Positions 3,991-57,920 of a stretch of 64,000 nucleotides of DNA are shown here, piece by piece. The stretch comes from Dokdonella sp. (lineage in GTDB: Bacteria > Pseudomonadota > Gammaproteobacteria > Xanthomonadales > Rhodanobacteraceae). A program made the position numbers and the translations under genes. Position 1 is the first letter of the stretch. The number at the start of each line of letters is the position of its first letter. A model generated the notes under the pieces. The model ran no database searches. It saw nothing but the letters and a program-made list of their open reading frames with translations, and was not told the origin of the DNA. The DNA is taken from the NCBI GenBank assembly GCA_024707225.1, contig JANQAE010000003.1:620001-684000 (forward strand), read 5' to 3'.

Positions 3991-5195
3991 CCAGAGCCCT
4001 CGCACGCGCAGCCACGATGACGCTGACGATGGCTTTGCTCGCGGCAGCGGCGGTCCACATTGTGACGGCGTGGCGGGCCGACGCGCTGCTGGCGACCGAC
4101 CCGGCCGGCGCGGCGCGCGTGCGCAGCGATCATCCCGATGCGCTGCTCGCACTGGCACACGCCGAACTGCAGCGCGGCGATGCCGGGGCGGCCGCACGAA
4201 CGGCGCAGCAGCTGCTGGCCCGCGACCCGGCCAACGGCGCCGGCTTTGCGGTGCTGGCCCGGGCGCTCGGTGACGAAGGCGGCAGCGCGCGGCAGCTCGA
4301 ACGCTACCGGATCGCCGCGCGACGGGCGCCGCGCGATCTGTCGATCCGCGGCTGGCTGGTCGCGCACGAGCTCCAGGCGGGCGACTTCCCGGCCGCGCTC
4401 GAACACATCGACGCCTTGCTGACGCTGCCTTCGCGCGACCGCGCGCGCCTGCTGGAAGCGATCGCGAACCTGGCGGCCGATCCGGCCTTCGCCGACGCGC
4501 TCGCCGTTCGCCTGGGCCAGCGGCCGCGTTGGCGCGCGGACCTGCTGCGCGTGGCCTCGGCGATGGACGCCGGCGCCGCCGACCCGCTGTTCGTCGCGCT
4601 GGAGCGCAATGCCGATCTCCATGCATCCGAACGCAGACCGTGGCTGGACGCGCTGCTCCGGCAGGGGCGCTGGGGCGAGGCGTTCGCACGGTGGGCCGGC
4701 TCGCTGCCGGGCCCGCAGCAGGCACTGCCGCTGCTCTACAACGGCGCTTTCGCATCGCCGCCGTCGAATGCCGGGTTCGACTGGCGCGTGCGCCGCGTCG
4801 ACGGCGTGGTATTCGAGCGCGTGGCCGACGGCGACGGCAGCTTCGCGCGGCTGCGGTTTCTGGGGTCGCCGGTGGGACGTGCCGGGCTCGAACTACCGCT
4901 GCTGCTGGCGCCGGGCCGCTACCGGCTCGGCCTGGCCGCGCGCGCAGCCGACCTGCGTGCCGAACCGGGACTGGAATGGTCGATCAGCTGTGCCGGCAAC
5001 GGACGGCACGTGGCGAGCGTGCGCGTCCCGGCGGGTCCGCGCTGGGAGACGGTCGCGGCAGCTTTCGACATACCGCCCGACGGCTGCGATGGACAGTGGC
5101 TGCGATTGATCAATCCGGCCGCCCCCGGCGTCGCGCAGCGGATCCGCGGCGAGCTTGAGCTGCGCGACCTGCACATTGATCGAGTCGAGTTCTGA
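3987..5195 (+). CDS. TPR-like protein with C-terminal jelly-roll-like domain, EPS locus
   Basis: The start is GTG at 3987, overlapping the TGA of the J-domain gene (GTGA); no better start lies downstream before the hydrophobic N-terminus. The product has about 402 residues. An N-terminal signal or anchor (TMTLTMALLAAAAVHIVTAW) is followed by Ala/Leu-rich helical repeats of the tetratricopeptide kind up to about residue 210. A beta-rich C-terminal part then holds GRYRLGLAARAADL and WETVAAAFDIPPDGCDGQW, which resembles a carbohydrate-binding jelly roll. I cannot assign a named family. Position suggests a periplasmic accessory factor for polymerisation or export. Confidence 0.65.
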   Translation: MTRALARAATMTLTMALLAAAAVHIVTAWRADALLATDPAGAARVRSDHPDALLALAHAELQRGDAGAAARTAQQLLARDPANGAGFAVLARALGDEGGSARQLERYRIAARRAPRDLSIRGWLVAHELQAGDFPAALEHIDALLTLPSRDRARLLEAIANLAADPAFADALAVRLGQRPRWRADLLRVASAMDAGAADPLFVALERNADLHASERRPWLDALLRQGRWGEAFARWAGSLPGPQQALPLLYNGAFASPPSNAGFDWRVRRVDGVVFERVADGDGSFARLRFLGSPVGRAGLELPLLLAPGRYRLGLAARAADLRAEPGLEWSISCAGNGRHVASVRVPAGPRWETVAAAFDIPPDGCDGQWLRLINPAAPGVAQRIRGELELRDLHIDRVEF

Positions 5196-50353: not shown

Positions 50354-50370
50354 GTATAAATCATTTATAC
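50354..50370. promoter_or_regulatory. AT-rich palindromic operator before the alpha/beta hydrolase
   Basis: GTATAAA-TCA-TTTATAC, a perfect seven-base inverted repeat, 40 bases before the hydrolase start. In this GC-rich sequence it stands out strongly. It contains TATAAA and so may overlap the -10 box. The same arms occur at 57499-57515. Confidence 0.65.
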
Positions 50371-50410
50371 TGATCGACCGCGCACTGCGCGTCCGATTCC
50401 GTCCGAACCG

Positions 50411-51505
50411 ATGAACCTGCCCCGCCGCCGCCACGCGTCGCTGCGTGCGAGCCTCGCCGTCGCCGCGACCGTCGCCGTCGCGCTGCTGACGCTGCCGGCG
50501 CTGCTCGGCGCGCGCGTACTGGCCCCGGCGAGCGATCCGGTCGTCGAAGCCGGCGATGCCGGCTACACGGTGACCGACCTCGAATGGATCGACGCCGCAC
50601 GCGATCGCCGGATACCGGCGCGGCTGTTCCGGCCGGCCACGGCCGATCGCGATGCACCGGTCGCGCTGATCGTGTTCTCACCCGGCATCGGCAGTTCGCG
50701 CGATGGCTATACGCACCTGGGCCGCTACTGGGCGCGCCACGGCATCGCCAGCCTGCATCTGCAGCACGTCGGCAGCGATCGTTCGCTCTGGCACGGCGAT
50801 CCGCTCGACGTGCTCGCGCGCCTGCGTTCCGCAGCCGGGTCCGTCGAGGCCGTCGCGCGGGCCGGTGACCTGCGCTACGCGCTGGACCGCCTGCTGGCGA
50901 GCCGCTACGGCCCGCGCATCGCACGCGACGCAATCATCGCGGCCGGCCATTCCTACGGCGCCAACACGACCCTGCTCGCGATCGGTGCGACCGTACCGGG
51001 CGTCGACGCTGCCGCGGCGCTGCGCGATCCGCGCATCGAGGCGGCGATCCTGATCTCGGCACCACCGTTCTACGGCGCGAAGAACTTCGCGCCGATCCTC
51101 TCGGGGATCGCGATTCCGACCCTGCATGTCACGACGCGCGAGGACGTCATCCGCCTTCCCGGTTTCGTCTCGGGACCGGACGATCGCCTCAAGGTGTTCG
51201 ACGCGACCGGCAGCGCGTTCAAGGCGCTGGCGGTGTATGCGCACGGCAGCCACACCGTATTCACCGATCGGCGTTACTTCGATACGGCCCCGATCGCCGA
51301 CGCGGTCAAGGAAGCGACGCAGACGCTGTCGACCGCATTCGTCGACCGGATCCGCAGCGGGCGCCACGAAGCGCTCGACGAATGGGCGCAGACGCATCGT
51401 CCGCTGCTCGAGCGCTACGTGCTCGATCGACACCTCGTGACGAGCCGCGCGCCGGTGCGGGCCGTCACCGCCGCGGCCGCCGCCGAGGCGGTCGCGCTGC
51501 ACTGA
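50411..51505 (+). CDS. Exported alpha/beta hydrolase (dienelactone/PAF-AH-like)
   Basis: A 364-residue protein with an N-terminal signal or anchor (SLAVAATVAVALLTLPALLG). LIVFSPGIGSSRDGYTHLGR forms the oxyanion region and IIAAGHSYGANTTLL has the nucleophile Ser in GHSYG. PTLHVTTREDVIRLPG carries the likely Asp, and YAHGSHTVFTDRRYF the His. It probably hydrolyses an ester in the periplasm. A palindrome shared with the regulator gene at 57534 lies at its promoter. Confidence 0.82.
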   Translation: MNLPRRRHASLRASLAVAATVAVALLTLPALLGARVLAPASDPVVEAGDAGYTVTDLEWIDAARDRRIPARLFRPATADRDAPVALIVFSPGIGSSRDGYTHLGRYWARHGIASLHLQHVGSDRSLWHGDPLDVLARLRSAAGSVEAVARAGDLRYALDRLLASRYGPRIARDAIIAAGHSYGANTTLLAIGATVPGVDAAAALRDPRIEAAILISAPPFYGAKNFAPILSGIAIPTLHVTTREDVIRLPGFVSGPDDRLKVFDATGSAFKALAVYAHGSHTVFTDRRYFDTAPIADAVKEATQTLSTAFVDRIRSGRHEALDEWAQTHRPLLERYVLDRHLVTSRAPVRAVTAAAAAEAVALH

Positions 51506-52061
51506 AGCGATCGGACCTGCATCCCCGGGGCGATCGTCGCGCGTCGGAGGCACGCCAGTCCGGTAACGCTGCGTAGCGCCGGCGGTCGGGCCCTGCCCGG
51601 CGCGACACGGGCCCGCGCGCGCCGGGGGCGCGTGGGCGAAGGAACCGCGCCTGCCGCGAATCGCACGCCGCTGCGCCTGACCGAATCGAAGCCAGGACAT
51701 ATCGCGATTGCATCGACGGCATGCGAGCGATCGTGCATCGCGATGGGCAAGCAGCCGCACCGCACGCGGACGCGTTCACGCCTGCCATCGGAATCCGGCT
51801 GGACCAGCCGCTGCGCAACGTGCATGCAAGCGCTCGGAGCATCCGCGATGCCTGCGGTCCGATCGATCACACCGCCGAGTCGGCGCGGTCGGACCGGGGC
51901 TTGGGAAGGAGCGGCGAGGATGGCGACCTGCAGGCGCCGACGGCGCGAACGCGCAGGAGCGGAGGAGAGAAACGAACAGCGCCTCGAAGGGCGCATCGCG
52001 ATGCCTGGCGTCGCGTGAAGCGGATGCGGCGACCGTGGCCGCCGCATCCCGGAAAACGGCT
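51506..52061. other. Gene-free stretch between the hydrolase and HU genes
   Basis: About 556 bases. Several open frames cross it in both strands, but all give Arg/Ser/Ala-rich products without start context or domains. I see no tRNA, repeat or clear terminator. It could hold a small RNA, which sequence alone does not show. Confidence 0.4.
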
Positions 52062-52444
52062 TCAGGCCGCGGCGTCCTTGAGCTTCTTGAGCGGACGCAC
52101 CTTGACCTTGACGCTGGCCGGCTTGGCCGCGAACCACTGCTCTTCCTTGGTGAACGGGTTGATGCCCTTGCGCTTCGGCTTGGCCGCCACCTTCACAGCC
52201 GTGATCTTGAGCAGACCCGGCAGCGTGAACGAACCGACGCCCTTCTTGCTGACCGAACCGGCGACCGCCGATTCGAGGCTGGCCAGCACGGCGCGGACGT
52301 CCTTCGGTGCCACGCCGGTCGACTCGGCCAGGTGAGCCACCAGGCCCGACTTGCCGAGGGCTTCCTTGATCGGCTTGGCGGCGGCGGGGCCTTGGCGGCG
52401 GCCGGCTTCTGCGGGGCGGTCTTCTTCGCGGGCTTCTTGGTCAT
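52062..52444 (-). CDS. HU-family DNA-binding protein, frameshifted near 52385
   Basis: The N-terminus MTKKPAKKTAPQKPAAAK is the Lys/Ala/Pro tail seen before HU domains in Xanthomonadales. The HU fold follows one frame over: KPIKEALGKSGLVAHLAEST, LASLESAVAGSV, GSFTLPGLLKITAVKVAAK and RKGINPFTKEEQWFAAKPA. One added base in the GCC run (restoring APAAAKPIKEA) gives about 127 residues. A break in such a conserved nucleoid gene argues for a sequence error. It shapes DNA in the nucleoid. Confidence 0.85.
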
Positions 52445-52685
52445 CGATGTCGCTCCAGTATCGGGGTTTGGTTGCGGGGCACGGCTTTGGAGTGCGCACT
52501 GTAGGACAAGCCAAAGGCGCCGCCAAGCGGATTAGACCACGCTGCAATGCGCCATCCCGCGACGGCAACCGGCGCTCGCCGCCGCCACCGGCATCCCGCG
52601 CCGCCCCGCACCCCGGTCGCGACCGCACCGGTGACGGTCGAACCGCCGGTGCGGAAGCGGCGCGGGCCGAGCGGTTTTTTGCGGC

Positions 52686-53615
52686 TCAGCGGCCGACCGC
52701 GATCGGCCGCACCGTCGCTGCGGCGGGCGGCAGACCTGCCAGCGCCGCCTGCAGCAGCTGCTGATCCTGCTCGGCGCCGAGCGCATCGACGGTCGCGGCC
52801 AGCGCACGAAACGGGCCGGACCGGCGACGCAGGCCGGCGAGCAGCGTCGCGAGCTCGTGTTGTCCGGCGCCGTCGGGCAAGTGCTTGCGCAGCGTCTTCA
52901 GCGCGGTCCACTGCATGCGCAGACGACGCAGGCGGCGGCGCCAGCGGTGACGTCGCTCGGAACCCGCATCGGCCAGCCGCGCGCGTTCGCCGGCGCGCTC
53001 GGCGCGACGCTGGCTGCGTGCGAGCGCCTGGTCGAGTGCATCGGCGTCGAGTCGCGCCCACGGCAGGCGTTCGACGATCCGGCCGATCCGCGCGACCTCG
53101 GCGCGCCGCGCCGCGAAGCCCGGGTCGTGCGCGCGGGCTCGCGCGAGCGTCGCGCGGCGATCGGTCAGCAATCGCCGCCGCAGCGCCGCGCGGCAGCGGC
53201 GTTGCTCCACGTCGGACGCATCGCGCAGATGCCGTCCGGCCAGCTCGACCAGGACCTGCGCATCGCGCAGATCGGACAGGCCGTCGGCCAGCCGTGCGAG
53301 CGCGGTATCGGCCGCAGCGGCACGCCGGCCCAGGCACCGCTGGCCGAGCTGCAGGATCGCGCGCAGGCGGCGGATCGCCTTGCGCGCTTCGTGCACGCCG
53401 CGATGCGGTGCCGCTTGGTCGGACAGCGCATCGGCCAGCGCAGCCAGATCGTGCGCGACGATCATGTGCAGTCCGGCGCCGAGCGTGACCGTCGTTTCGA
53501 TGCGCGCCGCCTTCACGGCCGGGTGACCGCCGCGACGCGGCTTCGACGGCGTGCGCGCGACCGCGTCCGACGGCGGCCTCGCACTCGACGGGGGCGGAGC
53601 GGAAACGGCGGGCAT
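52686..53615 (-). CDS. CHAD-domain protein
   Basis: A 309-residue, Arg-rich helical protein. The CHAD domain is clear: VHEARKAIRRLRAILQLGQR with the conserved His/Arg/Lys pattern, LSDLRDAQVLVELAGRHL, and the second half RRLRRLRMQWTALKTLRKHL. CHAD proteins bind polyphosphate, and the basic helices here fit that. About 50 residues of low-complexity sequence precede the domain. It stands alone between HU and the LytTR regulator. Confidence 0.87.
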   Translation of the reverse strand: MPAVSAPPPSSARPPSDAVARTPSKPRRGGHPAVKAARIETTVTLGAGLHMIVAHDLAALADALSDQAAPHRGVHEARKAIRRLRAILQLGQRCLGRRAAAADTALARLADGLSDLRDAQVLVELAGRHLRDASDVEQRRCRAALRRRLLTDRRATLARARAHDPGFAARRAEVARIGRIVERLPWARLDADALDQALARSQRRAERAGERARLADAGSERRHRWRRRLRRLRMQWTALKTLRKHLPDGAGQHELATLLAGLRRRSGPFRALAATVDALGAEQDQQLLQAALAGLPPAAATVRPIAVGR

Positions 53616-53678
53616 CGACGGTCTCGCGGCCTCGACAGTCGTCAGGCTAATCGAGTCGCGTGAGAAAACCGTTACGCA

Positions 53679-54443
53679 CTACATGCCGCGGAAACGATGC
53701 GCGAACGCGGCGCTGACCGGCAGCGTCTCGGCGCGGCCCTTGAGCCGCAGCACCGCGCGTCCGAACTCGTCCTTGCGCAGCCGCTCGATCGCGGCGACGC
53801 GGACGACGACGCCGCGATGCACCTGCCAGAACAGATCCGGATCGAGTCCGGCCAGCAGCTCCTTCAGCGGCGTGCGGATCACCGCCTCGTCGGCGCCGGT
53901 GACGACGCGCACGTACTTGTCCTGGGCCTGGAAATAGACGACCTCGTCGATGCCGATCATGCGCACGCTGTCGCCGGCACTGGCGCTGATCCAGCGGATC
54001 AGGCGATCGCCGTGCGGTCGCAGCCGCGCCTCCAGCGCATCGAGCGGAGCGGCCGGCACGATGCCGTCGGGCCGCGCGAGACGCGCGCGCAGCCGCTCGA
54101 CCGTGCGGCGCAGCCGCGCAGGCTGGATCGGCTTGAGCAGGTAGTCGGCGGCGCCGGCGTCGAACGCACGCACCGCGTACTCGTCGTAGGCGGTCGTGAA
54201 CACGACCAGGCCGCCGCCGGCGACGACCGCGCGTGCGACGTCAAGGCCGCCGATGCCGGGCATGCGGATGTCGAGGAACGCGACCTGCGGGCGTCGTTCG
54301 GCGGCGATCAGCAGCGCCGACGGTCCGTCCTCGCAGGCGCCGACGACCTCCAGCTCGGGCCATTGCTCGGCGAGCAGGTCGAGCAGGGCCGCGCGCTGCG
54401 GCGCCTCGTCCTCGGCGATCAGCGCGGTGACCGGCGCGTTCAC
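53679..54443 (-). CDS. LytTR-family response regulator
   Basis: GTG 54443 overlaps the stop of the histidine kinase gene (GTGA). The 254-residue product has a receiver domain (ALIAEDEAPQRAALLDLLAE, VAFLDIRMPGIGGLDVARA, then VFTTAYDEYAVRAF and YLLKPIQPARL with the conserved Lys). A LytTR DNA-binding domain follows: VVYFQAQDKYVRVVTGADEA, WQVHRGVVVRVAAIERL. The partner kinase is immediately upstream. Confidence 0.92.
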   Translation of the reverse strand: MNAPVTALIAEDEAPQRAALLDLLAEQWPELEVVGACEDGPSALLIAAERRPQVAFLDIRMPGIGGLDVARAVVAGGGLVVFTTAYDEYAVRAFDAGAADYLLKPIQPARLRRTVERLRARLARPDGIVPAAPLDALEARLRPHGDRLIRWISASAGDSVRMIGIDEVVYFQAQDKYVRVVTGADEAVIRTPLKELLAGLDPDLFWQVHRGVVVRVAAIERLRKDEFGRAVLRLKGRAETLPVSAAFAHRFRGM

Positions 54444-55651
54444 GGCGGACTCGCCGGCAGACGGATCTCGGCCCGCGTGCCGGCGCCGGGGCGGCCCTGC
54501 AGCTGCAGGCGTGCGCGCTCGCCGTAGCGCATCGCCAGCTGCTCGCGCACGTTGGCCAGGCCCATGCCGCCGCCGAAACCCGGCTGCAGGCCGGCACCGT
54601 CGTCGGCGACCGTCACGACCAGATCCTCGCCGTCGCGGCGCGCCGTCAGCACGATCCGCCCCGGGCCGGGCTTGGGCTCGACGCCGTGCTTGACCGCGTT
54701 CTCGACCAGGATCAGCAGCAGCAGCGGCGGATACGCGCAGCCGCGCAGCGCCGAATCGATCTCCACCGCGTAGCTGAGCCGGTCGCCGGTGCGCAGGCGC
54801 ATCAGCTCCAGATAGCTCGTGCAGATGTCGAGCTGCTGGCCCAGCGTCGAATGCAGCAGCGCATCCTCGTCGCGCAGGCGCGGAATCGTCGCGCGCAGAT
54901 GATCGACCAGGGCGTCCAGCGTCGCCTCGGCGCGTGCCGGATCGCGGCGGACCAGCGCCCTCACCGAGGCCAGCGTATTGAACAGGAAATGCGGCTCGAC
55001 CTGCGCCTGCAGCAGGCCCAGGCGCAGATCGGCGCGCTGCGCCTGCACGCGCGCATCGGCCAGCGCACGGCGGTTGCGATGGTCGTGCCAGCGCTGCCGT
55101 TCGCCGAAATACGCGCGCAGTGCGAGGCCACCGCCGAACAGGCCGTAGATCATGATCAGCAACAGCAGGTTGAGCGCGATCGACACCGCACGCTCGACCG
55201 GACCCAGATCCGGCAGCGGCGGATACGCCGACGGACCGAGTGCCGGCACCATCATCGCTTCGATGCGCGCCGAGGTCATGAAGTCGGCGAGGCAGCTCGC
55301 AACCATGCCGAGCAGCATCGCCGCGACGATGCCGCGCCGTTCGGCCACGGCCGACCAGCCGCGATGGCGGACCCAGGTCGCCAGCGCCGGGCCGGTCGTC
55401 GCCATCAGCCCGAAGCCGGCGAACTGGTAGAACGCCATCGGCAGCACCAGGCCGTAGTCGCGTGCGGCCAGGCCGATCGCGCCGCCGACCAGCAGCGCGA
55501 TCACACCGATGATCGATGCGAACAGCGCGCTGCGGCCGCGCAGCCACGGCAGACTGAACACCGGATACTGGCGGTAGCGGCTCCACACCGCACCGCGGCC
55601 GATCAGGACGTCCGGCGGCAGCGGACGATCGAGCCGATAGTCGGCGCTCAC
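54440..55651 (-). CDS. LytS/His_kinase-type sensor kinase
   Basis: The start is GTG 55651, 10 bases after the serine hydrolase stop. The 403-residue protein has about five membrane helices in its first 190 residues with no extracytoplasmic domain, so it may sense within the membrane. The kinase part has the H-box LQAQVEPHFLFNTLASVRAL, the N-box LLLILVENAVKHGV and the ATP loops VTVADDGAGL and GGGMGLANVREQLAM. It is a LytS-class (His_kinase/HATPase) enzyme that pairs with the next LytTR regulator. Confidence 0.9.
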   Translation of the reverse strand: MSADYRLDRPLPPDVLIGRGAVWSRYRQYPVFSLPWLRGRSALFASIIGVIALLVGGAIGLAARDYGLVLPMAFYQFAGFGLMATTGPALATWVRHRGWSAVAERRGIVAAMLLGMVASCLADFMTSARIEAMMVPALGPSAYPPLPDLGPVERAVSIALNLLLLIMIYGLFGGGLALRAYFGERQRWHDHRNRRALADARVQAQRADLRLGLLQAQVEPHFLFNTLASVRALVRRDPARAEATLDALVDHLRATIPRLRDEDALLHSTLGQQLDICTSYLELMRLRTGDRLSYAVEIDSALRGCAYPPLLLLILVENAVKHGVEPKPGPGRIVLTARRDGEDLVVTVADDGAGLQPGFGGGMGLANVREQLAMRYGERARLQLQGRPGAGTRAEIRLPASPP

Positions 55652-55661
55652 GCGGCCGCGC

Positions 55662-57296
55662 TCAGCGCCGCTCGCCGCGCAGCTGCTGGCCGCCCTGCAG
55701 CAGCGTCAACGCGCGTACCGCGCCGCTATCGTCACGCTCGAAGCGGATCTCGGCGGCGACGGATGCCGCGACGAATGCATCGGTATCCACGGCGTCGACC
55801 TCGATCGGCGGCTGCCCGGTACCCTGGACGTAGAGGGTGCCCGCCTTCTCGCTGACCGTCAGCGAAAAGCCCGGCACCAACGGATACTCGCCGACATAGG
55901 CGCGCAGCGCCTCGGCGCTCGGCTGCGCAATCGTCTTCGCAGGCGCCGCGTCCAGGCGCACGGCCGCCAGTTCGGCCCCCATCTGCATCCATGTGAAGCC
56001 GTAGCCGCGCGCGGTGCGCTGCGGCCGCAGCACCGCGTCGAAGTCCAGCGGATAGAAGTCGCCGGCGTCGTCGTAGCCCATCGTGTGGGCGCCCTGCCCG
56101 TCCGGCTCGATCACCAGCGCGCCGTCGCGCTGACTGAGCCGCATCGTCAGCGTATCGCCGATCCGGTAGCGGCCGACCAGGCCGTCAAGCAGCGCGCGGT
56201 CCGGCGCAACGGTCTTGCGCGGCTTGCCGAGCGGGAGGCTGGCATCGACCAGGTGCAGGCCGAGGCTGCCGAGACTGCCGATCGAATGCCAGGCGGTGTC
56301 GGACAGGATCACCACGCCGCGCTCGCGCAATCGGTCGACCGCGACGAACGAGGAGAAGCCGCCGGTGCCGCCCTCGTGAACCAGCACGCGGCGCTCGCCG
56401 ACCGGCATCAGCATCCAGTTCATGCCCATCGGCGGCGACTGCGACAGCGGCTGCTGGGTCACGGCCATCGCCGCGACGATCGGCGCATCGCCGCGACCGA
56501 GCTCGGCCTGCACGTAGCGCACCATGTCCTCCAGCGTCGCGCGCACGCCGCCGACGCCGGCCAGATCGACCGGAAACGTCCAGGCCGCGGTCGGGCGGCC
56601 GTTCGGCGTGTGGCCGACGGCGGCACGGATGCCGCTCGGCGCGCGCGACACGTAGGCACCGTCCATGCCGAGCGGCCGCAGCAGGCGTGTCGTCAGCAGC
56701 GTCTCGTAGTCGCTGCCGGCGCGCCGCGCGACCGCCAGCGACAGCAGCATCGAGGCGAAGTTGGAGTACTCGAAGCCGGTACCCGGCGCCGCGCTCAGCG
56801 TGACGTCGCCGAGCGAGTCGAGCAGGTCGCGCTCGGTCAGGGTCGCGTACGGGTCGGCCGGGTCGGTCGTCTTCATGCGCGAGGGCAGCGCCGGCAGGCC
56901 CGAGGTATGCGTGACGATGTGGCGCAGCCGGATCGTCTGGCCCTGGAATGCCGGCACCTTCGTGCCCTCGGGCAGGTAGTCGGCCAGCGGATCGTCGAGC
57001 GCGGCCTTGCCCTGCGCGATCAGGTCGGCCAGCAGCGCCGCCGTCATCGTCTTGCTGACCGAGCCGATCTCGAACGCGGTCTTGGCGTCGATGCGCTTGT
57101 CCTGCGCGGGATCGGCGCAGGCGAAGCTGCGCGCGACGCGGTCGCGTTCGATCACCGCCACCGCCATGCAGGCACCGGTGCGGTCGCCGGCCAGACGCTG
57201 ATCGACCACGGCGCGCAGCTGCGCGTCGTCGCCGGCCTGGGCCTGCCCGGCGCCAAGAACGATACCGGCTGCGATGCCGAGGATGGCCAGGTTCAT
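55662..57296 (-). CDS. Secreted serine hydrolase of the beta-lactamase (class C/PBP4*) family
   Basis: ATG 57296 has GGAG eight bases upstream. The 544-residue product has a signal peptide (MNLAILGIAAGIVLGAGQAQ). The active site is S79-V-S-K82 (SxxK) in FEIGSVSKTMTAALLADL, Y177-S-N179 (YxN), and H307-E-G-G in place of KTG. IRLRHIVTHTSGLPALPS is typical. A beta-rich C-terminal domain follows from about 380. It could be an esterase, peptidase or penicillin-binding hydrolase. It heads an apparent operon with the LytS/LytTR pair. Confidence 0.88.
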   Translation of the reverse strand: MNLAILGIAAGIVLGAGQAQAGDDAQLRAVVDQRLAGDRTGACMAVAVIERDRVARSFACADPAQDKRIDAKTAFEIGSVSKTMTAALLADLIAQGKAALDDPLADYLPEGTKVPAFQGQTIRLRHIVTHTSGLPALPSRMKTTDPADPYATLTERDLLDSLGDVTLSAAPGTGFEYSNFASMLLSLAVARRAGSDYETLLTTRLLRPLGMDGAYVSRAPSGIRAAVGHTPNGRPTAAWTFPVDLAGVGGVRATLEDMVRYVQAELGRGDAPIVAAMAVTQQPLSQSPPMGMNWMLMPVGERRVLVHEGGTGGFSSFVAVDRLRERGVVILSDTAWHSIGSLGSLGLHLVDASLPLGKPRKTVAPDRALLDGLVGRYRIGDTLTMRLSQRDGALVIEPDGQGAHTMGYDDAGDFYPLDFDAVLRPQRTARGYGFTWMQMGAELAAVRLDAAPAKTIAQPSAEALRAYVGEYPLVPGFSLTVSEKAGTLYVQGTGQPPIEVDAVDTDAFVAASVAAEIRFERDDSGAVRALTLLQGGQQLRGERR

Positions 57297-57496
57297 GATC
57301 GCGACTCCATGGAGAGGGAGCGTGGATGCTCGCGCAGCCGCTGGCAAGCCGCCGGCCGCTGCGACGGAGCGGCCGATCGCGGCGACGAACGCCGCCCGGT
57401 GCGGAGCCGATGCCTGCGCCGTCGGCTGCGGCCGCGCCACGACCGGCGTCCGGGAGCCCAGTAGCGATGCCGCCTGGAACCGGCTAGGCTGCGCAA

Positions 57497-57517
57497 CGGT
57501 ATAAACCATTTATACCG
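57497..57517. promoter_or_regulatory. AT-rich palindromic operator between the serine hydrolase and RHH genes
   Basis: The arms CGGTATAAA and TTTATACCG around CCA are perfect over nine bases. It lies 17 bases before the RHH gene start and about 200 bases before the divergent serine hydrolase start. The seven inner bases of each arm equal those at 50354-50370. Autoregulation of the RHH protein is the simplest reading. Confidence 0.7.
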
Positions 57518-57533: not shown

Positions 57534-57920
57534 ATGGCACAGCGCAGGGCGGCCGCGAACAGCGGCAGGAAGACGGCGGCACGCAAGCCGCAGACGGAAC
57601 GGGTCGTGCAGCCGGCGGCGGTGCGCACGGCACGGCCGGTCAAGGCGGTACCGCCCGCCCCGGGCGAGATGGACGCGAAAGCCGGCAAGGACGCGAAGAA
57701 GCACAAGCTGGTCCGCGACAGCTTCACGATGCCGCGAGCGGACTTCGAGCTGATCCACACGCTCAAGGAACGCGCGCTCGGATTCAAGCGTCCGACCAAG
57801 AAGAGCGAACTGCTGCGCGCCGGCCTGCAGGCGCTGGCGGCGCTCGACGATGCCGCGCTGAAGGCACGGCTCGAGCGGCTGATTCCGCTCAAACCCGGGC
57901 GTCCGAAGCAGAAGCCCTGA
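57534..57920 (+). CDS. Ribbon-helix-helix-like DNA-binding protein
   Basis: A 128-residue basic protein. Residues 1-58 are Lys/Arg/Ala/Pro-rich and probably disordered. Residues 59-103 fit a ribbon-helix-helix: strand KLVRDSFTMP, helix ADFELIHTLKERALGF, then KRPTKKSELLRAGLQALAAL. The tail (ERLIPLKPGRPKQKP) is basic. GGAGAG precedes the ATG. It probably binds the palindrome just upstream, and may control the divergent hydrolase operon and the hydrolase at 50411; target and signal are inferred, not shown. Confidence 0.72.
   Translation: MAQRRAAANSGRKTAARKPQTERVVQPAAVRTARPVKAVPPAPGEMDAKAGKDAKKHKLVRDSFTMPRADFELIHTLKERALGFKRPTKKSELLRAGLQALAALDDAALKARLERLIPLKPGRPKQKP

Follow-up and report, generated by a model that had tools for sequence, protein, structure and literature searches.

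A rare palindrome as the probable operator of a ribbon-helix-helix-type autorepressor and its hydrolase partner in Dokdonella sp.

In a 64,000-nt stretch of Dokdonella sp. DNA (contig JANQAE010000003.1, positions 620,001 to 684,000; hereafter the window), the AT-rich palindrome GTATAAA-N3-TTTATAC precedes two genes, one for a putative ribbon-helix-helix (RHH) protein starting at position 57534 and one for an alpha/beta hydrolase. This palindrome is probably the operator of an autorepressor, with the 57534 product controlling its own gene and that of the hydrolase, and the same joint reading would limit the regulon in this genome to the repressor and its ancestral operon partner. We infer the protein as the binder, binding as repression and the co-control of the hydrolase from the computed facts given below together with general knowledge of RHH repressors.

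As proposed, the 57534 product would act as an RHH-type autorepressor whose dimers bind 8-bp half-sites (GTATAAAY or RTTTAYAC) every 9 bp. These half-sites, usually two and in some relatives three or more, would be occupied in the promoter region of the repressor gene, roughly 20 nt upstream of the start codon, and abundant protein would shut off its own gene. In close relatives the operon includes the hydrolase gene and a single operator would serve both genes, while in this genome and in its sister G005 a distance of 7-10 kb separates them and each has its own operator, so that the repressor would control two promoters (handles with G denote genomes, with L loci; this genome is G000).

Rarity of the palindrome and its tie to one gene family

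A search of the window returned exact matches at 50354-50370 and 57499-57515 and no others at up to three mismatches. Both copies were thus found where the initial annotation had placed them, and in promoter positions as it had held, with the start codons of two plus-strand genes 40 and 18 nt downstream, respectively. Operator 1, upstream of the RHH-like gene, reads CGGTATAAA-CCA-TTTATACCG, and operator 2, upstream of the hydrolase gene, reads GTATAAAT-C-ATTTATAC with perfect 8-bp arms around a single base. The description of 57497-57517 as a perfect 21-base palindrome holds for the 9-bp arms but not for the middle, as the central CCA is asymmetric. The window was dinucleotide-shuffled 100 times, and no shuffle contained two sites, in agreement with the earlier expectation that a chance pair is very unlikely. 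In the whole genome (4,366,231 bases, four contigs), the pattern GTATAAANNNTTTATAC occurred at two places without mismatch, and still at the same two places only when up to two mismatches were allowed; the reversed-pattern control gave two per strand. Direct-repeat sites (GTATAAAYNGTATAAAY, up to two mismatches) were also sought in this genome, and only operator 1 was returned. The genome-wide scan for the palindrome, set beforehand as a check on the annotation, shows that the motif is not frequent at random sites.

The same rarity bears on a simpler explanation, in which the AT-rich element is a core promoter, with TATAAA as the -10 box, and is palindromic by mere coincidence. The operator does hold TATAAA at a possible -10 position, where it would be usable as such, and the closely related loci L023, L024, L026 and L028 have a perfect TTGACA 16 nt farther upstream, with five of the six letters present in four more loci. 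However, a general element would recur throughout the genome, whereas the palindrome is present twice in 4.37 Mb. Moreover, the right half-site is conserved too, and the outer half-sites more weakly, and 34 of 42 stretches have no -35 element of five or six letters. On motif rarity, the conserved right half-site and the scarce -35 elements, a plain promoter was rejected as highly improbable.

Among 60 related genomes, this one included, six encode the RHH-like protein and two contain the exact motif. Other genus members with the gene carry a version of the motif in the same place, GTATAAACTGTTTATCC in G001 and G004 and GTATAAACTGTTTACAT in G006. At two mismatches, the motif appeared in at least 38 of the 60 genomes among the matches listed, with the reversed control equal or higher in many rows, and this search was used for no count. 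A protein query of genome_contigs yielded 39 further loci from Beta- and Gammaproteobacteria, as judged from the record titles. Three of them (L027, L051, L052) were dropped as contig ends lacking upstream DNA, and the remaining 36 were combined with five loci from the genus, including the window. All 41 loci have the motif upstream of the RHH-like gene, with zero (8), one (21), two (8) or three (4) mismatches to GTATAAANNNTTTAYAC. The distance to the start codon was 11-33 nt in 39 loci (median 20), partly by construction, as starts were set by script at the first in-frame ATG past the operator (TTG in L035); the exceptions are L032 at 68 nt, which has a second, 2-mismatch site closer to the gene, and L056 at 148 nt. 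Elsewhere in the same 556,306 bases, at up to three mismatches, the motif was found at four places besides 12 matches within 60 nt of the operators. These four comprise the hydrolase operator of the window, that of G005 counted twice in overlapping registers, and a stray match in L053.

Whole-genome searches gave a similar picture. With GTATAAAYNRTTTAYAC at up to one mismatch, 24 of 35 genomes had a match, at a single place each, and 11 had none (L027, L051, L052 and L059 were left out of this search). In all 24, tblastn located the RHH domain at the motif locus; in L070 and L071, a long tail pushes the operator past the 700-nt look-back of the script. In the order-wide scan of 398 genomes, 19 matched the RHH profile, 12 of them as close homologues below 1e-30, and ten contained the exact motif GTATAAAYNRTTTAYMC. 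Eight of these ten are RHH-positive with the motif adjoining the gene (Fisher p = 2e-10, uncorrected for relatedness); the other two, G513 and G548, gave no profile match, and their motif loci (41% and 53% G+C) are without an RHH domain. All 12 close homologues have an operator at up to two mismatches, five of them overlapping with the 41 loci. In a class-wide sample, 9 of 369 genomes, this one included, were positive for the RHH-like protein, and two distant members were again preceded by the site, L113 with no mismatch and three half-sites in register, L114 with one mismatch. The faint homologues L157-L159 were outside the upstream-operator check. One plasmid record (Variovorax) carries a partial relative of the protein.

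These comparisons support a motif that is rare and accompanies orthologues of the RHH-like gene, and conservation beside those orthologues, which the annotation had named as a check, was borne out as a site at the gene's own promoter. A different regulator could bind the palindrome and control both the RHH-like gene and the hydrolase, and one encoded elsewhere would be compatible with the sequence evidence. However, in the 24 genomes with a match the single site lies beside the RHH-like gene, and among the 398 genomes the exact motif tracks the presence of that gene. A site before one gene family only is the usual mark of autoregulation, and we regard a foreign regulator as unlikely.

Operator layout and the RHH-like protein

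For the register analysis, seven near-duplicate upstream stretches were dropped, leaving 34 non-redundant loci. Position-wise information was elevated from approximately -5 to +23 and thus extends past the palindrome. Half-site similarity peaked at offsets -9, 0, +9 and +18, with 0 and +9 forming the anchored pair. Since the best upstream match served as anchor, the inner two half-sites are inflated in this plot and the outer two are unaffected. Good half-sites (at least six of eight letters, either strand) were present at -9 in seven loci and at +18 in six, while other offsets had zero to two loci each, except for the off-register offset -7 with five. Direct-repeat operators with 9-bp spacing occur in Tahibacter (L034) and Rhizobacter (L053, L055, L059), and the G005 hydrolase operator, GTATAAACT-GTATAAATC-ATTTATCG, is of this type as well. 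Short half-sites repeated at fixed spacing, a feature of RHH-type operators, were therefore found in silico in both inverted and direct arrangement. Stacked RHH dimers would need such a 9-bp register in either orientation, and the layout fits dimers that each read one half-site.

An inverted repeat so close to a start codon could also form an RNA hairpin in the leader, and a few loci show two-sided changes that keep a pair (three at pair 3; C-G besides T-A at pair 8). However, pairing is lost at the three outer positions in 9, 11 and 13 of the 34 loci, and the combinations at pairs 3 and 8 match independence, with 12 T-A against 11.6 expected, 6 C-G against 5.6 and 3 G-C against 2.9. Furthermore, direct-repeat variants cannot fold in this way, yet their half-sites stay in register. 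With pairs often broken and covariation no greater than under independence, the hairpin was rejected and is hardly credible.

With regard to the protein, alignment of the family showed a variable, often Lys/Ala/Pro-rich part followed by a conserved, roughly 70-residue domain that has the invariant pattern KL-RD-FT-P ... KKSE-LRAG ... GRP (alignment A2 leaves out L114). The tail is N-terminal in all examined members but L113, whose Lys/Ala/Pro-rich tail is C-terminal. The longest members reach 305 (L049), 304 (L040) and 291 residues (L039), 3 of 36 members match Pfam HC2, and the tail of the window protein is short and, by eye, moderately Lys/Ala/Pro-rich. The AlphaFold2 model of the whole protein (mean predicted local distance difference test score, pLDDT, 67.6) has an extended RDSFTMP followed by helices at 68-81, 90-102 and, as a third, 106-115. 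The domain modeled alone (mean pLDDT 84.7) has helices at 14-29, 36-48 and 52-60, and no strand of three or more residues was assigned in either monomer model. Compared with 17 RHH_1 members from related genomes, the broader profile gave P = 2.5e-4 at a probability of 43%, spanning the strand and both helices, whereas the narrower one stayed below significance (P = 0.057, probability 1%). Sixteen PDB chains matched weakly at E up to 10, two of them ParD (best E 0.14), and profiles A1 and A2 matched no RHH chain in the PDB.

Several observations weigh against an RHH autorepressor. Searches of Pfam, NCBIfam, PHROGs and PADLOC returned no family that names the RHH-like protein, and when both AlphaFold2 models were used to search for similar folds, no convincing RHH structure came up, with a ParD2 row at E 8.2. 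As these fold searches are unconvincing, the fold assignment depends on the sequence pattern, the predicted topology and the RHH_1 profile comparison. The annotation of the product as an RHH protein is moderately supported, and an RHH fold is likely. As to the promoters, a -35 element of five or six letters was seen in only 8 of the 42 stretches, and the promoter scan of the window found no promoter-like site. With a clear -35 element in few promoters and in none of the window, repression rather than activation is what we infer for the mode of control. The counts of the tie are not free of weaknesses either. The reversed-pattern control of the 35-genome search matched in three genomes, and the eight order genomes with motif and RHH-like gene fall into two genera (five and three), so that these counts are not independent. 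Five of the 12 close homologues (G000, G005, G001, G713, G700) repeat loci among the 41, with the upstream DNA of G713 and G700 identical to that of L030 and L034, and the seven new ones all belong to one genus. Finally, the motif fades in more distant members. It is absent at the distant homologue L009 of G049, which lacks a comparable site, the best upstream match has four to five mismatches in L115, L116, L117 and L120, and the intermediate homologues L152-L156 had no match below five mismatches in 700 nt upstream. The mutual relatives L118 and L119 have a 3-mismatch candidate only, GTYTAACCCATTTACAG, at 1332-1348 and 1307-1323 of the reverse complement, shortly upstream of a possible start as judged from the translation shown; it may be a diverged operator.

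The hydrolase partner and neighboring genes

The alpha/beta hydrolase, whose N terminus is hydrophobic by eye, matched strongly in only 4 of the 60 relatives (G000, G005, G001, G006), all RHH-positive, and weakly in G039 and G053; in G004 the RHH gene is present and the hydrolase was not found. A same-strand hydrolase gene lies downstream of the RHH gene in G001, G006, Pseudoxanthomonas (L029, L030) and Tahibacter (L034), and in the order scan this held for 10 of the 12 close homologues. The exceptions are this genome and G005, which share their gene order and have RHH-hydrolase distances of approximately 7 and 10 kb. Because they share this arrangement, the split pair is one evolutionary event seen twice. 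In both genomes the hydrolase gene is preceded by its own operator, with flanks that differ by eye. This operator before the split-off gene is the strongest evidence for co-regulation, and the sequence comparisons point to an ancestral RHH-hydrolase pair with a co-regulated hydrolase. A query of viral_contigs with the hydrolase, and not with the RHH protein, returned none.

The initial annotation had proposed a small regulon of exported hydrolases. The link to the alpha/beta hydrolase stood, through the ancestral pair and the separate operators where it is split, but the wider regulon was not supported, with two sites here and mostly one elsewhere. Outside close relatives, different genes follow the RHH gene. 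In eight loci (L021, L023-L026, L028, L031, L056), the hydrolase is replaced by a homologue of peptidase M14 (zinc carboxypeptidase); these loci are Burkholderiales-type and were grouped by BLAST, three of the eight being Pfam-scanned. Elsewhere the next gene is mixed, and a universal hydrolase regulon was rejected. The annotation had also counted the divergent serine hydrolase among the regulated genes. In favor of a regulon that takes in the serine hydrolase and histidine kinase operon, the serine hydrolase shares its upstream intergenic region with the RHH-like gene, an arrangement also found in G005, and the longest serine hydrolase frame starts at 57509, within the palindrome. The likely start, however, is at 57296, approximately 200 nt from the palindrome, as placed from the signal-like MNLAILG... 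and from the G005 match beginning at the same residue, whereas only 18 nt separate the operator from the RHH start. Moreover, a serine hydrolase was near the RHH gene in only 1 of 43 loci searched, that of G005, and such a wider regulon is quite improbable. The features are collected in Table 1.

Table 1. Predicted operators and associated genes, in window coordinates
Feature	Position	Strand	Remarks
Operator 1 (predicted)	57497..57517; core 57499-57515; half-sites 57499-57506 / 57508-57515	.	18 nt upstream of RHH-like gene
Operator 2 (predicted)	50354..50370; half-sites 50354-50361 / 50363-50370	.	40 nt upstream of alpha/beta hydrolase; related site precedes G005 orthologue
RHH-like protein, 128 aa	57534..57920	+	Low-confidence, disordered-looking N-terminal part and conserved C-terminal domain (KLVRDSFTMP...KKSELLRAGL...GRP)
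Alpha/beta hydrolase (Pfam Hydrolase_4), 364 aa	50411..51505	+	Operon partner of RHH-like gene in most close relatives
Serine hydrolase (Beta-lactamase + DUF3471)	55662..57296	-	Divergent from RHH-like gene; operator control unsupported
CHAD-domain protein	52686..53615	-	Possible third member of ancestral cluster

A CHAD-domain gene was repeatedly seen in the vicinity of the RHH-hydrolase pair, with variable orientation (window, L029, L030, L142, L145-L151). In the window and in G005 it is close to the pair, whereas in Pseudoxanthomonas it lies downstream, and seven genomes of a single genus have it upstream, on the opposite strand; near the RHH-like gene of G001, G006 and Tahibacter it was not found. 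An operator of its own was not found within three mismatches in the window. The CHAD gene may have belonged to the ancestral cluster as a third gene.

Two further observations concern the same region. A HU-like DNA-binding gene at 52062-52444 (minus strand) looks frameshifted, with its Lys/Ala-rich start and HU domain in different frames, by a real change or a sequencing error; its G005 orthologue (L017, approximately 4670-5050) is a single open frame. Genes for a LytTR response regulator and a histidine kinase (53679-55651, minus strand) adjoin the serine hydrolase, in the same order in G005.

Comparison with known systems and implications

RHH proteins that repress their own genes are already known. 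Those that use short boxes, MetJ among them, bind cooperatively to these boxes, which are set at fixed spacing in their own and related promoters. The predicted layout resembles this in its short boxes, fixed spacing and choice of promoters, and differs in the 9-bp spacing, the half-site and the one or two promoters per genome. A close parallel is the omega repressor of the omega-epsilon-zeta plasmid module, a MetJ/Arc family member whose binding site is reported to consist of palindromic and non-palindromic heptad repeats (PMC4803016). Its mixture of inverted and direct repeats is also seen here; however, the heptad is NATCACN there, whereas a 9-bp repeat with the core GTATAAAY is found here. 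The partner here is a hydrolase (no specific search for toxin partners was made), and a long Lys/Ala/Pro-rich tail is present in many of the proteins. CopG and ParD2 dimers are reported to stack next to one another along an extended operator (PMC8251345). The family resembles ParD weakly in the region of the second helix (ParD SEVIRAGL) but is N-terminally tailed, L113 excepted, has no Pfam match, and its named neighbors are not ParE-like.

The tail also invites comparison with the H1-like proteins AlgP and PhaF, whose Lys/Ala/Pro-rich disordered tail may have a counterpart in many members of this family, often neighbored here by a CHAD gene. AlgP is reported to associate with granules of polyphosphate (PMC9239181), and CHAD domains are reported to bind this polymer (PMC6537752). 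AlgP differs in that its N-terminal domain is described as alpha-helical, and no sequence-specific operator is mentioned for it in the part of the source available. In combination, tail and CHAD neighbor suggest a possible link to polyphosphate. A previously unrecognized RHH family with H1-like tails might then combine autorepression through a 9-bp-repeat operator with a phosphate-polymer store tied to the nucleoid; tail and CHAD neighbor would come into contact with polyphosphate, and the polymer, by titrating the protein, would relieve the repression of the hydrolase. We consider this extension very unlikely.

The family, its 9-bp-repeat operator and the tail were not met in the family libraries or literature searched. 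From sequence, a family without Pfam or NCBIfam match thus gains a predicted function as a sequence-specific autorepressor, an exact operator and a target gene in one lineage. In this genome, the separation of the pair amounts to a natural experiment, with the partner genes apart and the operator kept by each. As the site is near-unique in the searched genomes, the prediction is cheap to test. If the polyphosphate link were true, a DNA-binding repressor would be the sensor of a storage granule.

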